From an uncultured Alphaproteobacteria bacterium (GTDB taxonomy: Bacteria > Pseudomonadota > Alphaproteobacteria > UBA7985): a stretch of DNA of 64,000 nt. Both the position numbers and the translations under genes were made by a program. A model generated the notes under the pieces. The model ran no database searches. It had not been told where the DNA came from and saw only the letters and a program-made list of their open reading frames with translations. Positions 32,338 to 42,485 of this stretch are shown here, piece after piece (position 1 is the stretch's first letter; every line of letters starts with the position of its first letter). Where the stretch lies: contig CAJQLX010000038.1 of NCBI GenBank assembly GCA_905479265.1, positions 1-64,000 on the forward strand. Reading direction: 5' to 3'.

Positions 32338-33000
32338 TTAGGCCAGCAACGCTTGGCGTTCACGCAAATGCGCGAGCAATCCAGTCAAATCCATGCCCAA
32401 AATGGTGAAAAAATCACCTTCAACCGCGTCAAACAACTGCGCACCCAGCCCTTCGAGTTGGTAACCGCCAACAGACCACAGCACTTCGTCGCCCAAGGTA
32501 TCCAAGTAAGCTCGGATGTATGCGTCGCTGAGGTCGCGCATGGTTAAATCCGCGCTGCGGGTCGAAGACCATTGCACTGCACCATCAACACACACAGCGG
32601 TGGCTGTAACCAGCTGGTGAGACTTACCGCTGAGAATCGACAAATTTTTGTGCGCCAAGCCACGATTGTCAGGCTTGTCAAACCATAGCTCTGCGCCGCT
32701 TGGCTCCTTGAGCACCAGCATCTGGTCAGCCCCAACGGTGATTTGGCCAGGATGCATCTGCGAAACCGAAACTGCCTTAGCCGCGGCAAGCTCTTGAGCG
32801 ACGTCAGCCGCTGAACGGCCATTTGCTTCACCGTCGGCCTTTACCGGCGCTTCGTCTACGTCTGAGGGCGCAACAACGATTGGCAACCCCGCATCCATAA
32901 GCATCGCCATCCGCGTTTGCGATGCGGATGCCAACAACAGGGGTTGCTCATCCAGCCATCCCAATTGAGGGGGCATCGGGAAATCGTCAAAATCATCCAT
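32338..33000 (-). CDS. maf: Maf-like nucleoside triphosphate pyrophosphatase
   Basis: 220 residues. Maf proteins hydrolyse non-canonical or specific nucleoside triphosphates. LLASASQTRMAML, APSDVDEAPVK, VGADQMLVL and SVGGYQLEGLGAQLFDAVEG mark the family; the active-site Asp-rich pieces are intact. ATG 33000 (MDDFDDFP) is chosen; a TTG at 33033 in frame is possible. It is the first gene left of the presumed origin, equivalent to the gene next to Cori in Caulobacter. Confidence 0.9.
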   Translation of the reverse strand: MDDFDDFPMPPQLGWLDEQPLLLASASQTRMAMLMDAGLPIVVAPSDVDEAPVKADGEANGRSAADVAQELAAAKAVSVSQMHPGQITVGADQMLVLKEPSGAELWFDKPDNRGLAHKNLSILSGKSHQLVTATAVCVDGAVQWSSTRSADLTMRDLSDAYIRAYLDTLGDEVLWSVGGYQLEGLGAQLFDAVEGDFFTILGMDLTGLLAHLRERQALLA

Positions 33001-33556
33001 CACGCAGTTTGATCCTTTTATCAGTGACGCCAAACCCCAACCGAGTCGCGGCTTAAAGGCTAAAGTTATTCTCCAACCCCTGTGTGTAACCCAATGGCTT
33101 GGTTGGGGATGGGGTTGAGTGCTTTTCTTATACTGAGGACAACTCTTCGTTCACAGTAAGGTTTTCAACCGTGGAAAAGGATAGTTTCTGACACATGAAG
33201 ACTGAGGATGCATGGTCTCAAACTCACTCAAAATTTCGATAAATGTGGTGGAGTTTGCTCTGATATATATGGCGATTCCGAGCGACGGTCGCGCAATGTG
33301 GCGCACATGGAAAGCAGGCTCAAATTTGGGGGTAAGTCGAGGATATCTTTTGATCCACAGATTCTGACCCTGCCAACAACAACAACTACCATTTTTAAAA
33401 ACTTTGTTTTGTTAGTTGGGGTTCTTTAAGCCATCACTGGTCTTGTGTTCAAACACCCCGTTCGATCGAGATTGATAAGGGCGTTGCGTTTGCTGGCAAA
33501 CAGACTTGAGCGCCAACGGCTTGCCTTTTCCATCCTTACCCCGCAAATCAGTGGCC
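33001..33556. other. Candidate chromosomal replication origin (oriC)
   Basis: 556 non-coding bases between maf and hemE, the same position as Cori of Caulobacter crescentus and the origin of Rickettsia. TGATCCACA at 33351-33359 equals the Caulobacter G-type DnaA box, and TCGTTCACA (33147-33155) is a weaker match to the loose consensus. GANTC methylation sites lie at 33043, 33274 and 33360, the last one touching the DnaA box. An A/T-rich stretch (about 33380-33430) follows and could be the unwinding element. Flanking operons run outward on both sides. Promoters for maf and hemE must also be here. Position is strong evidence, the boxes moderate. Confidence 0.75.
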
Positions 33557-34597
33557 ATGACACTCACGTATTCGGGCGACAAGCCTCTTCTCGCCGCTTT
33601 GCACGGTCAATCTCAATGGCCCCGGCCCGCATGGTTCATGCGTCAAGCTGGACGATATTTGCCGGAATACCGTGTGCTGCGGGCTGAGGCGGGCGGCTTT
33701 TTGGATTTGTGCGACAATCCGGACTTTGCCACCGAAGTGACCTTGCAGCCCATTCGCCGTTACGGCTTTGATGGCTCAATCTTGTTTTCCGATATTCTAA
33801 CCATCCCGCGCGCACTGGGCCAAGATCTGGCTTTTGCAGCCGGAGAAGGCCCGGTTTTGGGCGCTCTGCCGGACCATGCTGGTATGGAAGACCGCTTGGC
33901 GAGCGGGCAAGCCGCAGTGGTGCTCGATCCCGCTTATCGGGCTGTATCGCAAATCCGAGGGGCTTTGCCTGAAACCACCACGCTGATTGGTTTTGCCGGC
34001 GCGCCGTGGACATTGGCGACCTATATGATCGAAGGAGGGGCGAGTAAATCCTATGCGGCGACCAAGGCTATGGCCTACGGCAATCCGTCTGGTTTCGCTG
34101 CGTTGATCGATCTGCTGGTGCGGAGTGTCGCCCAGCATTTGATCGCGCAAATTAAAGCCGGGGCCGATGCTGTGATGATTTTCGATTCTTGGGCTGGATC
34201 TTTGGACCAAGCGGCGCAGTTGGCGTGGTCTTCTGCACCACTCAAGGCCATTGTCCGCCTGATCCGGCAAGAAGCGCCGGACACACCGGTGATTTTGTTT
34301 CCGCGAAAGGCCATGTTTGCCGCCCGCGATTTGTCTGGCTTCGATGCGCTGGTGAGCCTGCAAGTTGATTATTCCAATGATCTTCGGTCTGCTTCGGCGC
34401 TGGAATTTGCTGCGATACAAGGTAATCTGGACCCTGGTCGCCTGTTGGGAGACCGTGAAAGCGTCGAGGCCGCTACGCGTGATGTTATTGGACGGGTAGA
34501 CCGCGAACGCAGCCACGTTTTCAATCTTGGCCATGGTATTTTCAAAGAAAGCGACCCCGATGCAGTGCACTGGGTGCTGGATGCTGTACGCTCCTAA
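33557..34597 (+). CDS. hemE: Uroporphyrinogen decarboxylase
   Basis: Decarboxylates uroporphyrinogen III to coproporphyrinogen III in heme synthesis. The 346 residues carry WFMRQAGRYLPEYR (near 27), the FSDIL stretch and VMIFDSWAG (near 205), where conserved Arg, Asp and Tyr bind substrate. ATG 33557 gives the normal start (MTLTYSGDKPLL). It leads a right-facing block with hemJ and flanks the origin candidate. Confidence 0.97.
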   Translation: MTLTYSGDKPLLAALHGQSQWPRPAWFMRQAGRYLPEYRVLRAEAGGFLDLCDNPDFATEVTLQPIRRYGFDGSILFSDILTIPRALGQDLAFAAGEGPVLGALPDHAGMEDRLASGQAAVVLDPAYRAVSQIRGALPETTTLIGFAGAPWTLATYMIEGGASKSYAATKAMAYGNPSGFAALIDLLVRSVAQHLIAQIKAGADAVMIFDSWAGSLDQAAQLAWSSAPLKAIVRLIRQEAPDTPVILFPRKAMFAARDLSGFDALVSLQVDYSNDLRSASALEFAAIQGNLDPGRLLGDRESVEAATRDVIGRVDRERSHVFNLGHGIFKESDPDAVHWVLDAVRS

Positions 34598-38037: not shown

Positions 38038-38051
38038 GTTTCACGTGAAAC
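38038..38051. promoter_or_regulatory. parS site 1
   Basis: GTTTCACGTGAAAC is a perfect 14-bp palindrome matching the core of the bacterial parS consensus (TGTTTCACGTGAAACA). It overlaps the GTG start codon of mnmG (38045-38047), so ParB could bind exactly where translation begins. parA and parB lie 2.8 and 3.6 kb downstream. Confidence 0.93.
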
Positions 38052-39973
38052 TCTATCGCCGAAATGATGTTGTACCGCAAAACCTGAGCTTCGATGTCCT
38101 CATCGTCGGCGGGGGCCATGCCGGTACGGAGGCCGCTGCTGCCGCTGCGCGTGTTGGCGCCAAGGTGGCGCTGGTCACGCACAAATGGGCAACGGTTGGC
38201 GAAATGTCGTGTAACCCTGCGATCGGCGGTTTGGGCAAGGGCCATCTGGTTCGAGAAATCGACGCGCTTGATGGGCTAATGGGGCGCGCGATTGACCAAG
38301 CAGGTATTCAGTTTCGAATGTTAAACGCATCCAAAGGTCCAGCGGTTCGTGGTCCACGGTCCCAGGCGGATCGTCGTTTGTACCGCGAAGCCATTCAGGC
38401 GCTATTGCAGGACGAACCAACACTAACTGTGATTGAAGCGGGCGCAGACGACATAGAGCTGGACGACAGCGGCAGCATTGTTGGACTGCTGACGGACACG
38501 GGGGTCCGGATTGGCGCAGGTGCTGTGGTTATCACCACGGGGACATTCCTGCGCGGGAAAACGTTCATCGGTGATGAGGTGTTATTCGAAGGTCGAGCGG
38601 GTGAAGCGCCATCCATCGCTTTAGCCGATACGATCGAGCGTCTGGGTTTTCGGCTGGAGCGGTTGAAGACAGGCACGCCGGCCCGGCTTGACGCGCGGAC
38701 CATTGGGTGGGCTGGTTTGGATATCCAGCCGCCAGACGATGTGCTGGTTCCATTTTCGACGTTAACCGACGAGATCACGGTACCCCAAGTGGATTGCGGA
38801 GTGACTTTCACAACGCCGGCAACCCACGCCATTATTCGCGAAAATCTCGATAAATCAGCGGTTTACTCCGGCGCCATCGATGGTGTTGGTCCACGCTATT
38901 GCCCGTCGATCGAAGACAAAGTGGTTCGTTTTGCCGACAAATCGCGGCATCAGATTTTTTTGGAGCCAGAAGGGCTGGATGACCACACGGTTTACCCAAA
39001 CGGCATTTCCACATCACTGCCGCGTTCGGTTCAGGCAGCGATGCTCAAAACCATTCCTGGCCTCGAGCGGGCAGAAATTCTGCGGCCTGGCTATGCGGTG
39101 GAATACGATTATGTCGATGCGCGGGAACTGGATGAAACGCTGCAAACCAAGCGCGTATCAGGTCTGTATTTGGCCGGACAAATCAATGGCACCACGGGTT
39201 ACGAAGAAGCCGGGGCACAGGGCCTGGTGGCGGGGGCTAATGCAGCGCTTCAGACTGCTGGTGGGTTGGATCGACTCCGTATCGGGCGCCATGAGGGCTA
39301 TATTGGCGTCATGATCGATGATTTGGTGACGCGTGGGACGACAGAACCCTATCGCATGTTCACCAGCCGAGCGGAATTTCGGTTGCGGCTGCGCGCTGAC
39401 AACGCGGACCAAAGGCTGACGCCGCTCGGTTTGGCGCTTGGTCTGGTCCGTCAAACCCGCCAAGACTCGTTTCACGTGAAACAATCCCTGATCAACGAGG
39501 CCTTCCAGCAGTTCGAAGCCGTGAACCTGAGTCCAAATGAATGGGAGCGGGCCGGTTTCCCGATCAAGCTGGATGGACGCCGCCGAAGTGCGCTTGATAT
39601 GTTGAGCATGAAAACTGTTTCACTCGACCAGCTACAGGCTGCCTTTCCCACCTTGTCTGGCTTGCGTCCAGACGTCGCCGAGCAGCTTGAAATTGCAGCT
39701 GTCTATGCTGGCTATTTAGACCGGCAGGAACGCGAAGTGGCCGCCCTCCAATCAGAAGGCGACGCACGCTTGCCTGTTGACCTCGATTACGGGGCAATCG
39801 GCTCACTTTCCAACGAAATCCGCGAAAAACTAGAGCGCGCACGCCCGGAAACACTGGGTCGAGCCTCACGGATACAGGGGATGACACCAGCGGCCTTGGG
39901 CGCTCTCCTGAAGTACGTTCGTCGCCGGGGCGAAGACCGGCAGGCACTTTCGTCTGACAAGACCGCAGCCTAA
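38045..39973 (+). CDS. mnmG: tRNA uridine-5-carboxymethylaminomethyl synthesis enzyme MnmG
   Basis: 642-residue FAD protein, partner of MnmE in U34 modification. FAD site [10 protein letters not shown] near 18-27, the [17 protein letters not shown] signature near 60, the two cysteine stretches and the C-terminal helical domain ([17 protein letters not shown]) are present. The GTG start at 38045 lies inside a perfect parS palindrome, so the first codons (VKLYRRND region) are fixed by that site. A second parS is at 39469-39482 in the coding part, encoding FHVK. The stop overlaps the rsmG ATG. Confidence 0.97.
39469..39482. promoter_or_regulatory. parS site 2
   Basis: A second perfect GTTTCACGTGAAAC, extended by A on the right side, within mnmG codons for S-F-H-V-K. 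It is 1.43 kb from the first site and 1.3 kb before parA. Two intact sites close to parAB are normal for origin-proximal centromere clusters. Confidence 0.93.
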
Positions 39974-40659
39974 TGCCGCGACATTCGACGAGCCGGCCGC
40001 TGACCGTGCCATCGCCTTCAACGCTGTTTGACGAAACCAGCGCACGACTGGGGCTTGAGCCATCGCAGATCGAACAGCTCCAGCGCTATGTTGAGACTTT
40101 GGGAAAATGGCAGCCAACGCTTAACCTCATTGGGCCAAAGACATGGAGCGATGTTTGGAACCGGCATGTTGTCGATAGCCTCCAGTGCCTCGACTATGCT
40201 GATTTACCCGCAGGCGATGGGTCTGGTCACCCAGCGCCTGCACCAAAACTCGCAGACATAGGGACTGGGGCTGGCTTTCCGGGTGTCGTGATCGCAATCA
40301 CCACTGGCTTGCCGGTCACGCTGGTGGAGTCGGACCATCGCAAAGCCGCGTTCTTGCTGGCCGTGAAGTCGTCAACGGGTGCGCCTTTGACGATTGTTAC
40401 CAAGCGGGTCGAAAGCCTGCCGGCTCAACCGCTGGACGTTCTGTTTGCCCGCGCTTTTGCGCCCCTGCCGCGCCTGCTCGAGTGGTGTGCGCCGCTGATT
40501 GGCACGTCGACAACCTTGGTTTTGCACAAAGGCCGGACCGCACCCGAAGAAATCCAGGCGGCACAAGAGTCACACGACTTTGAAAGCGAAAGTTTTCCCT
40601 CGGTTATCGACAGCGACTCCGTGATTCTGCGCTTGCGCAACGTCCGCTCCACGCGCTAG
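39973..40659 (+). CDS. rsmG: 16S rRNA (guanine527-N7)-methyltransferase
   Basis: 228 residues. GidB/RsmG methylates G527 in the 530 loop of 16S rRNA. LADIGTGAGFPGVVIAI is the SAM motif I (near 94), followed by TLVESDHRKAAFL; the earlier WNRHVVDSLQCL stretch is the family signature, and FARAFAPLPRLLEW is typical. The start overlaps the mnmG stop by one base (TAATG). Confidence 0.95.
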   Translation: MPRHSTSRPLTVPSPSTLFDETSARLGLEPSQIEQLQRYVETLGKWQPTLNLIGPKTWSDVWNRHVVDSLQCLDYADLPAGDGSGHPAPAPKLADIGTGAGFPGVVIAITTGLPVTLVESDHRKAAFLLAVKSSTGAPLTIVTKRVESLPAQPLDVLFARAFAPLPRLLEWCAPLIGTSTTLVLHKGRTAPEEIQAAQESHDFESESFPSVIDSDSVILRLRNVRSTR

Positions 40660-40815
40660 GTCGTAAGCCAACGAAGGTTGCGCTCAACCCAGCAGGTTTT
40701 GCCGCCTTGGGCTCGTGATCCACACGCTGAACAAGCAAAACGCGCGTGTTTAGGCGCAAAAAACACCGTTTACGGCCTTAACCAAAACAGCCGATTGCAA
40801 TAGGAAACAACGTCC

Positions 40816-41589
40816 GTGTCAGAACCGGTAATTCTCGCCATTGCCAATCAAAAAGGTGGCGTCGGTAAAACCACCACTGCCGTAAACCTGGGCGCGGCTT
40901 TGGCCCGCAAGGGCAAAAAGACCCTGATCATTGACTCTGATCCACAAGGGAACGCGTCCACGGGACTTGGGATCGCCGCCGATGAGCGCGAGGCCAACCT
41001 CTATGCTGTTTTGGCGGGAACGACTGAGGCGTCGGCTGCCATCCGGCCCACATCTCAAGCAGATTTGTATATTTTACCCGCAAATCAGGATCTTGCGGCC
41101 ATGGAAATTGAGCTGGTTGACGCCGAAGCTCGTCAATTCAGTTTCCGTGACCGTCTGAAGGACGCAGCGCAAGATTTTGACGTGGTGTTGATCGATTGCC
41201 CGCCGGCTTTGGGGTTGCTGACGCTGAATGGTCTGGCGTGGGCGGACCGCGTATTGGTGCCGTTGCAGGCTGAGTTTTTTGCGCTTGAAGGGCTGGCGTT
41301 CCTGCTACGCACGTTGGACCGTGTTAAGCGCGGTTCCAACGCGTCACTCCAGCTGCTGGGGGTGGTGCTGACCATGTATGATGGCCGAAACCGGCTGGCG
41401 CAGCAGGTTGAAAGCGACGTGCGCACCCATTTGCGGGGACGTGTGTTCAAGACCAAAATTCCACGCAACGTCCGCCTGTCTGAAGCCCCGTCACACGCGC
41501 AGCCCATTTTTGATTATGATGAACGCTCATCCGGCGCACTGGCCTATGCCGCGCTGTCGGATGAAATCGCAACCAGTTTGGGCCTGTAG
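40816..41589 (+). CDS. parA: Chromosome partitioning ATPase ParA
   Basis: 257-residue Walker-type ATPase of the Soj group. The deviant Walker A NQKGGVGKTT lies at about 11-20, the DSDPQGNAS motif near 41 and the VLIDCPPALGLLTLN Walker B near 122. GTG start at 40816 follows AGGAA by nine bases. It works with ParB bound at parS (two sites in mnmG) to move the origin region apart after replication. Confidence 0.97.
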   Translation: MSEPVILAIANQKGGVGKTTTAVNLGAALARKGKKTLIIDSDPQGNASTGLGIAADEREANLYAVLAGTTEASAAIRPTSQADLYILPANQDLAAMEIELVDAEARQFSFRDRLKDAAQDFDVVLIDCPPALGLLTLNGLAWADRVLVPLQAEFFALEGLAFLLRTLDRVKRGSNASLQLLGVVLTMYDGRNRLAQQVESDVRTHLRGRVFKTKIPRNVRLSEAPSHAQPIFDYDERSSGALAYAALSDEIATSLGL

Positions 41590-41618
41590 GTCTTGCAGAC
41601 AACCGAAGGAAATCAGTG

Positions 41619-42485
41619 ATGGCGCAGAAAGGGTTGGGCCGCGGTCTGAGCGCGCTTTTTGACGATGACAATGCCGACGCTGTATCGGGGACAACGCCTC
41701 AACTGGTGCCGATCAGCGATCTATCCCCCAGCCCCTTTCAGCCACGACAGGTGTTTGACGCCGAGCGACTGCGCGAATTGGCGGATTCGATCAAATCCCA
41801 AGGCATCATCCAGCCGCTGCTGGTTCGGGACGCCAGCGATGGGGTAAAAACGCGGTTCGAAATCATTGCGGGCGAACGACGATGGCGCGCCGCGCAAAGT
41901 GCAATGCTGCACGAAGTGCCTGTGATTGTGCGTCCAATGGCCGATATGGATGCAGCTGAAGTTGCGCTGTTAGAGAACATTCAGCGCGAAGACCTCAGCG
42001 TTTTTGAAGAGGCTGAAGGGTACAGGCGCCTGATCACCCAATTCGGTTACACCCAAACCGACGTTGCCGATCGCGTGGGTAAAAGCCGGGCCCATGTCGC
42101 CAACGCCCTGAGATTGCTGGTCATGCCCGAGGCCTTGCGGCGCATGGTTGAGGAAGGGCAGCTTAGCGCTGGTCATGCGCGCGCGCTGTTGTCGGTCGAA
42201 AACCCACTGCCGCTGGCCCACAAAGCGGTTGCTGGCGGTTGGTCGGTGCGGCAGCTCGAGCAGGCCGTGCGGGATCTAGCGAAAGCAACCCAGTCGCCTG
42301 CGGCCGCAACGTTGAGCCCGGATGGCCGTGATAAGGATCCCGATCTGCGCGAAGCTGAAGAAGCAGCGACCAATGCGCTTGGATTGGCAGTACAGATACA
42401 AGGCTCGGGGACCAAGGGGCAAGTCCGGGTATCCTATGCCTCGCTTGAGCAGCTTGAGTTGATTCTAGCGAAGTTGGCCGAATAG
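41619..42485 (+). CDS. parB: Chromosome partitioning protein ParB
   Basis: 288-residue CTP-dependent DNA clamp that loads on parS. The Box II region ENIQREDLSVFEEAEGY and GERRWRAAQ CTP/arginine motif lie in the N-terminal half; the HTH (TQTDVADRVGKSRAHVANALRLL) is near 143; a short C-terminal dimer domain ends the protein. I use ATG 41619, eight bases after GAAGGA, over GTG 41616. It follows parA by 29 bases. Confidence 0.96.
   Translation: MAQKGLGRGLSALFDDDNADAVSGTTPQLVPISDLSPSPFQPRQVFDAERLRELADSIKSQGIIQPLLVRDASDGVKTRFEIIAGERRWRAAQSAMLHEVPVIVRPMADMDAAEVALLENIQREDLSVFEEAEGYRRLITQFGYTQTDVADRVGKSRAHVANALRLLVMPEALRRMVEEGQLSAGHARALLSVENPLPLAHKAVAGGWSVRQLEQAVRDLAKATQSPAAATLSPDGRDKDPDLREAEEAATNALGLAVQIQGSGTKGQVRVSYASLEQLELILAKLAE

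Follow-up and report, generated by a model that had tools for sequence, protein, structure and literature searches.

CtrA gates the replication origin in Caulobacter. Whether proven or predicted, the replication origins of Caulobacter and Rickettsia occupy the space between hemE and COG1806 (PMC1914354). The Caulobacter crescentus origin, Cori, carries two moderate G-boxes together with weak W-boxes (PMC4468827), as well as five CtrA boxes (PMC8959179). In Rickettsia and Wolbachia, the hemE-side origins exceed the genome average in A/T and contain several DnaA-like sites; the gene at the opposite flank is COG1806 in Rickettsia and COG1253 in Wolbachia (PMC1914354).

Here, we analysed a window of 64,000 bases, which constitutes the first part of a 92,977-base contig (C38) in a draft alphaproteobacterial assembly of 61 contigs and 2.89 Mb. 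A sequence-only reading of this DNA had placed the chromosomal origin in the 556 bases between maf and hemE. These bases are indeed non-coding, with maf on the minus strand to their left and hemE on the plus strand to their right:

33001..33556, no strand assigned: predicted oriC region, the maf-hemE intergenic gap, based on the skew minimum and on non-coding blocks conserved in five genomes
32338..33000, minus strand: maf (PF02545), left neighbour, with its start codon at the gap side, at 33000
33557..34597, plus strand: hemE (PF01208), right neighbour

The gap resembles Cori in its position beside hemE, its length (about 400-560 bp for this kind of region), its A/T-rich stretch and its combination of G-type and weak DnaA boxes, few of them strong (PMC4468827, PMC8959179). 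As in C. crescentus, the genome encodes GcrA and a CcrM-like methylase, the latter a RAMA-domain protein of CcrM size. With the origins of Rickettsia and Wolbachia, the gap shares the hemE flank, the raised A/T content and the presence of several DnaA-like sites (PMC1914354). A non-coding gap adjoining hemE is what criterion a of PMC1914354 (hemE or COG1806) describes for oriC, and the GC content of the gap, 46.6% vs roughly 58% across most of the window, agrees with the above-average A/T expected of hemE-type origins. The A/T-rich stretch noticed in the sequence-only reading is real, the best 40-bp windows, with 75-78% A+T, starting at 33375-33391. Skew, parS sites, synteny, the footprint of conservation in the genus and the DnaA-box array, each described below, are concordant and support the earlier call. 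We conclude that 33001-33556 is very probably the chromosomal replication origin (oriC) of this alphaproteobacterium, and that this maf-hemE origin is almost certainly a further case of the known hemE type, at the place usual in the class Alphaproteobacteria. For an unplaced draft genome, the origin could be located from sequence alone.

The flank opposite hemE sets this locus apart, with maf in place of the COG1806 of Cori and Rickettsia or the COG1253 of Wolbachia. The sequence-only reading had cited Caulobacter and Rickettsia for the hemE-side location, correctly, but the neighbouring gene there is COG1806, which is missing in this genus. COG1806 (PF03618) was detected in none of six genus members and in all five order sisters. 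Judged by coordinates, it lies beside hemE in most class relatives having both, and it does so in 40 of 80 named loci; maf is the next gene in many relatives. COG1806 was most likely lost in the genus, and maf therefore now borders the origin. An arrangement in which maf adjoins hemE across 205-660 bp, with no COG1806 between, is also found in acetic acid bacteria and in one Cohaesibacter:

maf-hemE loci elsewhere: Gluconobacter albidus (L067), Acetobacter fallax (L121), Bombella (L064), Parasaccharibacter (L063) and Cohaesibacter haloalkalitolerans (L074)

These bacteria are not close relatives, and their loci have no sequence match to the conserved core block of the gap. In a quick HemE tree, the genus was not placed near any named group.

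The DnaA protein of this genome, judged by eye, carries the usual domain IV signature. The G-type DnaA box proposed at 33351-33359 is present, and the gap contains six sites with at most two mismatches to TTATCCACA, vs 1.55 expected, a count reached in 0.3% of dinucleotide shuffles; none of the 500-bp windows of the contig exceeds the gap in DnaA-box-like sites. Five of the six sites fall in conserved blocks, most with box-like counterparts in relatives, and they are followed on the hemE side by two stretches of biased composition:

33081..33089, minus strand: DnaA-box-like TTACACACA (TTACTCACA and TTAAGCACA in relatives), from box scan and genus alignment
33134..33142, minus strand: DnaA-box-like TTGTCCTCA, within the core block, from box scan
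33170..33178, minus strand: DnaA-box-like TTTTCCACG (TTGTCCACG and TCATCCACG in relatives), from box scan and genus alignment
33234, minus strand: DnaA-box-like site, from box scan, the sole one of the six outside the conserved blocks
33327..33335, minus strand: DnaA-box-like TTACCCCCA (TTTCCCACA in two relatives), from box scan and genus alignment
33351..33359, plus strand: G-type DnaA box TGATCCACA (TAATCCCCA in two relatives), from box scan and genus alignment
33374..33390, plus strand: A/C-rich stretch CAACAACAACAACTACC, A/C-rich in all five genomes
33391..33416, plus strand: A/T-rich stretch, likely unwinding element, ending in CTT..TGTTTTGTT, which is invariant in five genomes

A similar box excess is seen in relatives, four same-genus genomes bearing four to six weak DnaA-box-like sites each. 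The sequence-only reading had remarked on the low number of clear boxes. A scarcity of perfect boxes is usual for origins of the class, and five more sites accompany the G-box. Indeed, the mean content of 40 named hemE/COG1806 gaps is 0.45 exact boxes, rising to 1.9 when one mismatch is tolerated and to 5.5 when two are; since the class means are so low for exact boxes and so high for loose ones, the box content of the gap is typical of hemE-type origins, in which few strong DnaA boxes are the normal state. The exact box TTATNCACA has zero copies in the whole contig, and no clusters of it were seen elsewhere in the genome, where 23 scattered copies compare with 29 in a reversed control. The draft contains 35 copies of TGATCCACA, five of which are on the 93-kb contig. 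The BUS unwinding module consists of a DnaA box, a spacer of up to 16 bp and DnaA-trios (PMC8287927), taken here as three or more consecutive trios with central A no further than 16 bp from the box. By-eye inspection of 33360-33416 recognised no canonical DnaA-trio run by the G-box. The A/C-rich and then A/T-rich stretch at 33374-33416 is the likely melting site.

An alignment of the gap from five genomes of the genus, the relatives' HemE being 71-82% identical to the HemE encoded here, revealed that the gap holds the same place in the four same-genus genomes, and that conserved non-coding blocks alternate with diverged sequence:

33102..33178, no strand assigned: conserved core block, in which 49 of 77 columns do not vary across five genomes
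33161..33175, plus strand: invariant 15-mer GTTTTCAACCGTGGA, from the genus alignment
33426..33432, plus strand: TTAAGCC, invariant in five genomes, resembling a CtrA half-site without matching TTAACC
33043..33047, no strand assigned: GANTC site (GAGTC), conserved in all five genus members

The core block is present as a single copy per genome in five of six genus members, the sixth being 63% complete and also without a hemE match. No match to it was found in a further 288 genomes sampled across the class, nor in some 70 hemE loci from outside the genus; with matches confined to the genus, a role as a class-wide origin element was rejected. All three GANTC sites listed in the sequence-only reading (33043, 33274 and 33360) exist, but their number is near chance because about 1.1 are expected in 556 bp (window density 1.95 per kb), and only the first is conserved in the genus. 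We thus rejected GANTC enrichment in the gap. CtrA and IHF sites are reported in the Rickettsia and Wolbachia origins (PMC1914354), whereas none is convincing here, the IHF search of the gap returning only one-mismatch matches, at 33092 and 33229.

Strong conservation of a non-coding block would also be expected if 33102-33178 encoded a small RNA, besides or instead of an origin role, and CcnA, encoded by ccnA in the Caulobacter origin, provides a precedent (PMC8959179). We consider this unlikely. An Rfam search of the gap gave one sub-threshold chance match only, and a scan of the gap for promoters and terminators detected neither a sigma-70-like promoter nor a terminator-like site. In addition, CtrA is believed both to drive CcnA and to be its target (PMC8959179), and this regulator was not found in the order; the conserved blocks also coincide with DnaA-box-like sites.

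The absence of CtrA emerged from a model search over 61 genomes with a cut-off of 350 bits, in which 30 of the 61, the CtrA-bearing class members, scored 374-431 bits. No CtrA-grade regulator was found in the 11 genomes of the order (G000-G010, including loci L002-L006, L012, L024, L027 and others), three of which are 99% complete; their scores, at most 189 bits, are in the range of CtrA paralogues. The best score in this genome is 142 bits, and the three CtrA candidates checked here were rejected, each fitting other regulator models better. The order seems to have lost CtrA. Unlike Cori with its five CtrA boxes (PMC8959179), the gap yielded no match to TTAA-N7-TTAA even with one mismatch allowed. 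With neither a CtrA-grade regulator nor a CtrA box in the gap, this would therefore be an origin of the hemE type that lacks the CtrA gate of Caulobacter, and initiation there is probably timed independently of CtrA. As the order seems to be without CtrA while GcrA and the CcrM-like methylase are kept, at least in this genome, something else would time initiation, and GcrA/CcrM or a protein reading the invariant block are candidates. That the whole order starts replication at a CtrA-free hemE-type origin with another timer, perhaps a reader of the GTTTTCAACCGTGGA block, is a tentative extension that could well be wrong. If the order is truly without CtrA, it would offer a natural Caulobacter-like origin working without its best-known gatekeeper, and the conserved 77-bp block would be the place to test for CtrA's replacement.

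The sequence-only reading had suggested a search for a minimum of cumulative GC skew at this locus, and had named a minimum elsewhere, for example near dnaA, as the counter-case. Skew was computed on two contigs of the 61-contig draft, C38 and the contig bearing dnaA. Over the whole 92,977 bases of C38, the lowest point of the cumulative curve falls at 33,080 for GC skew and for keto skew alike, within the gap. The best split is at 33 kb, with a mean G-C per kb of -15.8 to its left and +23.8 to its right, a change matched by none of 2000 block shuffles. On the other contig, where dnaA lies at about 36 kb, the skew declines steadily past dnaA with no origin-like switch near the gene, the best split being weak, at 98 kb, some 60 kb off (P 0.06); the counter-case was not seen. 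Two of four relatives display a clear GC-skew switch at the gap, with the minimum inside it or no more than about 130 bp away (G001 and G003); the skew is weak in G002, with a minimum at least 1.5 kb off the gap, and G005 gives no clear minimum. Segregation genes and sites lie to the right of the gap:

38038..38051, no strand assigned: parS GTTTCACGTGAAAC at the start of mnmG, conserved in the genus
39469..39482, no strand assigned: parS GTTTCACGTGAAAC inside mnmG, conserved in the genus
40816..41589, plus strand: parA
41616..42485, plus strand: parB

No other perfect parS site occurs in the 2.9-Mb draft; the two lie 4.5 and 5.9 kb right of the gap with parAB just beyond, and each is found at nearly the distance seen here in all four relatives. 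Nearby parS sites and parAB are a further trait expected of hemE-type origins. Two divergent genes flank the gap, and hemE transcription is linked to Cori function in Caulobacter (PMC8959179), raising the question of whether the gap is a mere divergent regulatory region of maf and hemE, its blocks being promoter or leader elements and the origin lying elsewhere, such as near dnaA. This is very improbable given that the skew switches inside the gap by two measures and not near dnaA on the dnaA contig, that both parS sites lie at this locus, and that the gap lacks a recognisable sigma-70-like promoter.

With oriC at 33001-33556, DnaA would bind the array of weak boxes, which spans about 280 bp (33081-33359), and, from the G-box TGATCCACA at its hemE-side end, act on the adjoining A/C-rich and A/T-rich stretch, where the strands would open and the helicase would load (33374-33416). 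Forks would exit both ways, the left one co-directional with maf-aroE-coaE-dnaQ, the right one with hemE-hemJ-rho-mnmE-mnmG-rsmG-parAB, and ParB would bind the parS pair 4.5-5.9 kb to the right and segregate the new origins.

A small DnaA-box-like cluster is also present at rsmG-parA (40604-40946), where TTATCGACA lies at 40604 and copies of TGATCCACA start at 40716 and 40938. An origin near but outside the gap, for instance in this region with its two further TGATCCACA copies, is hardly credible, these copies not being kept in relatives and the skew minimum lying 7.5 kb away. All five genus members share the TTATCGACA site near the end of rsmG.
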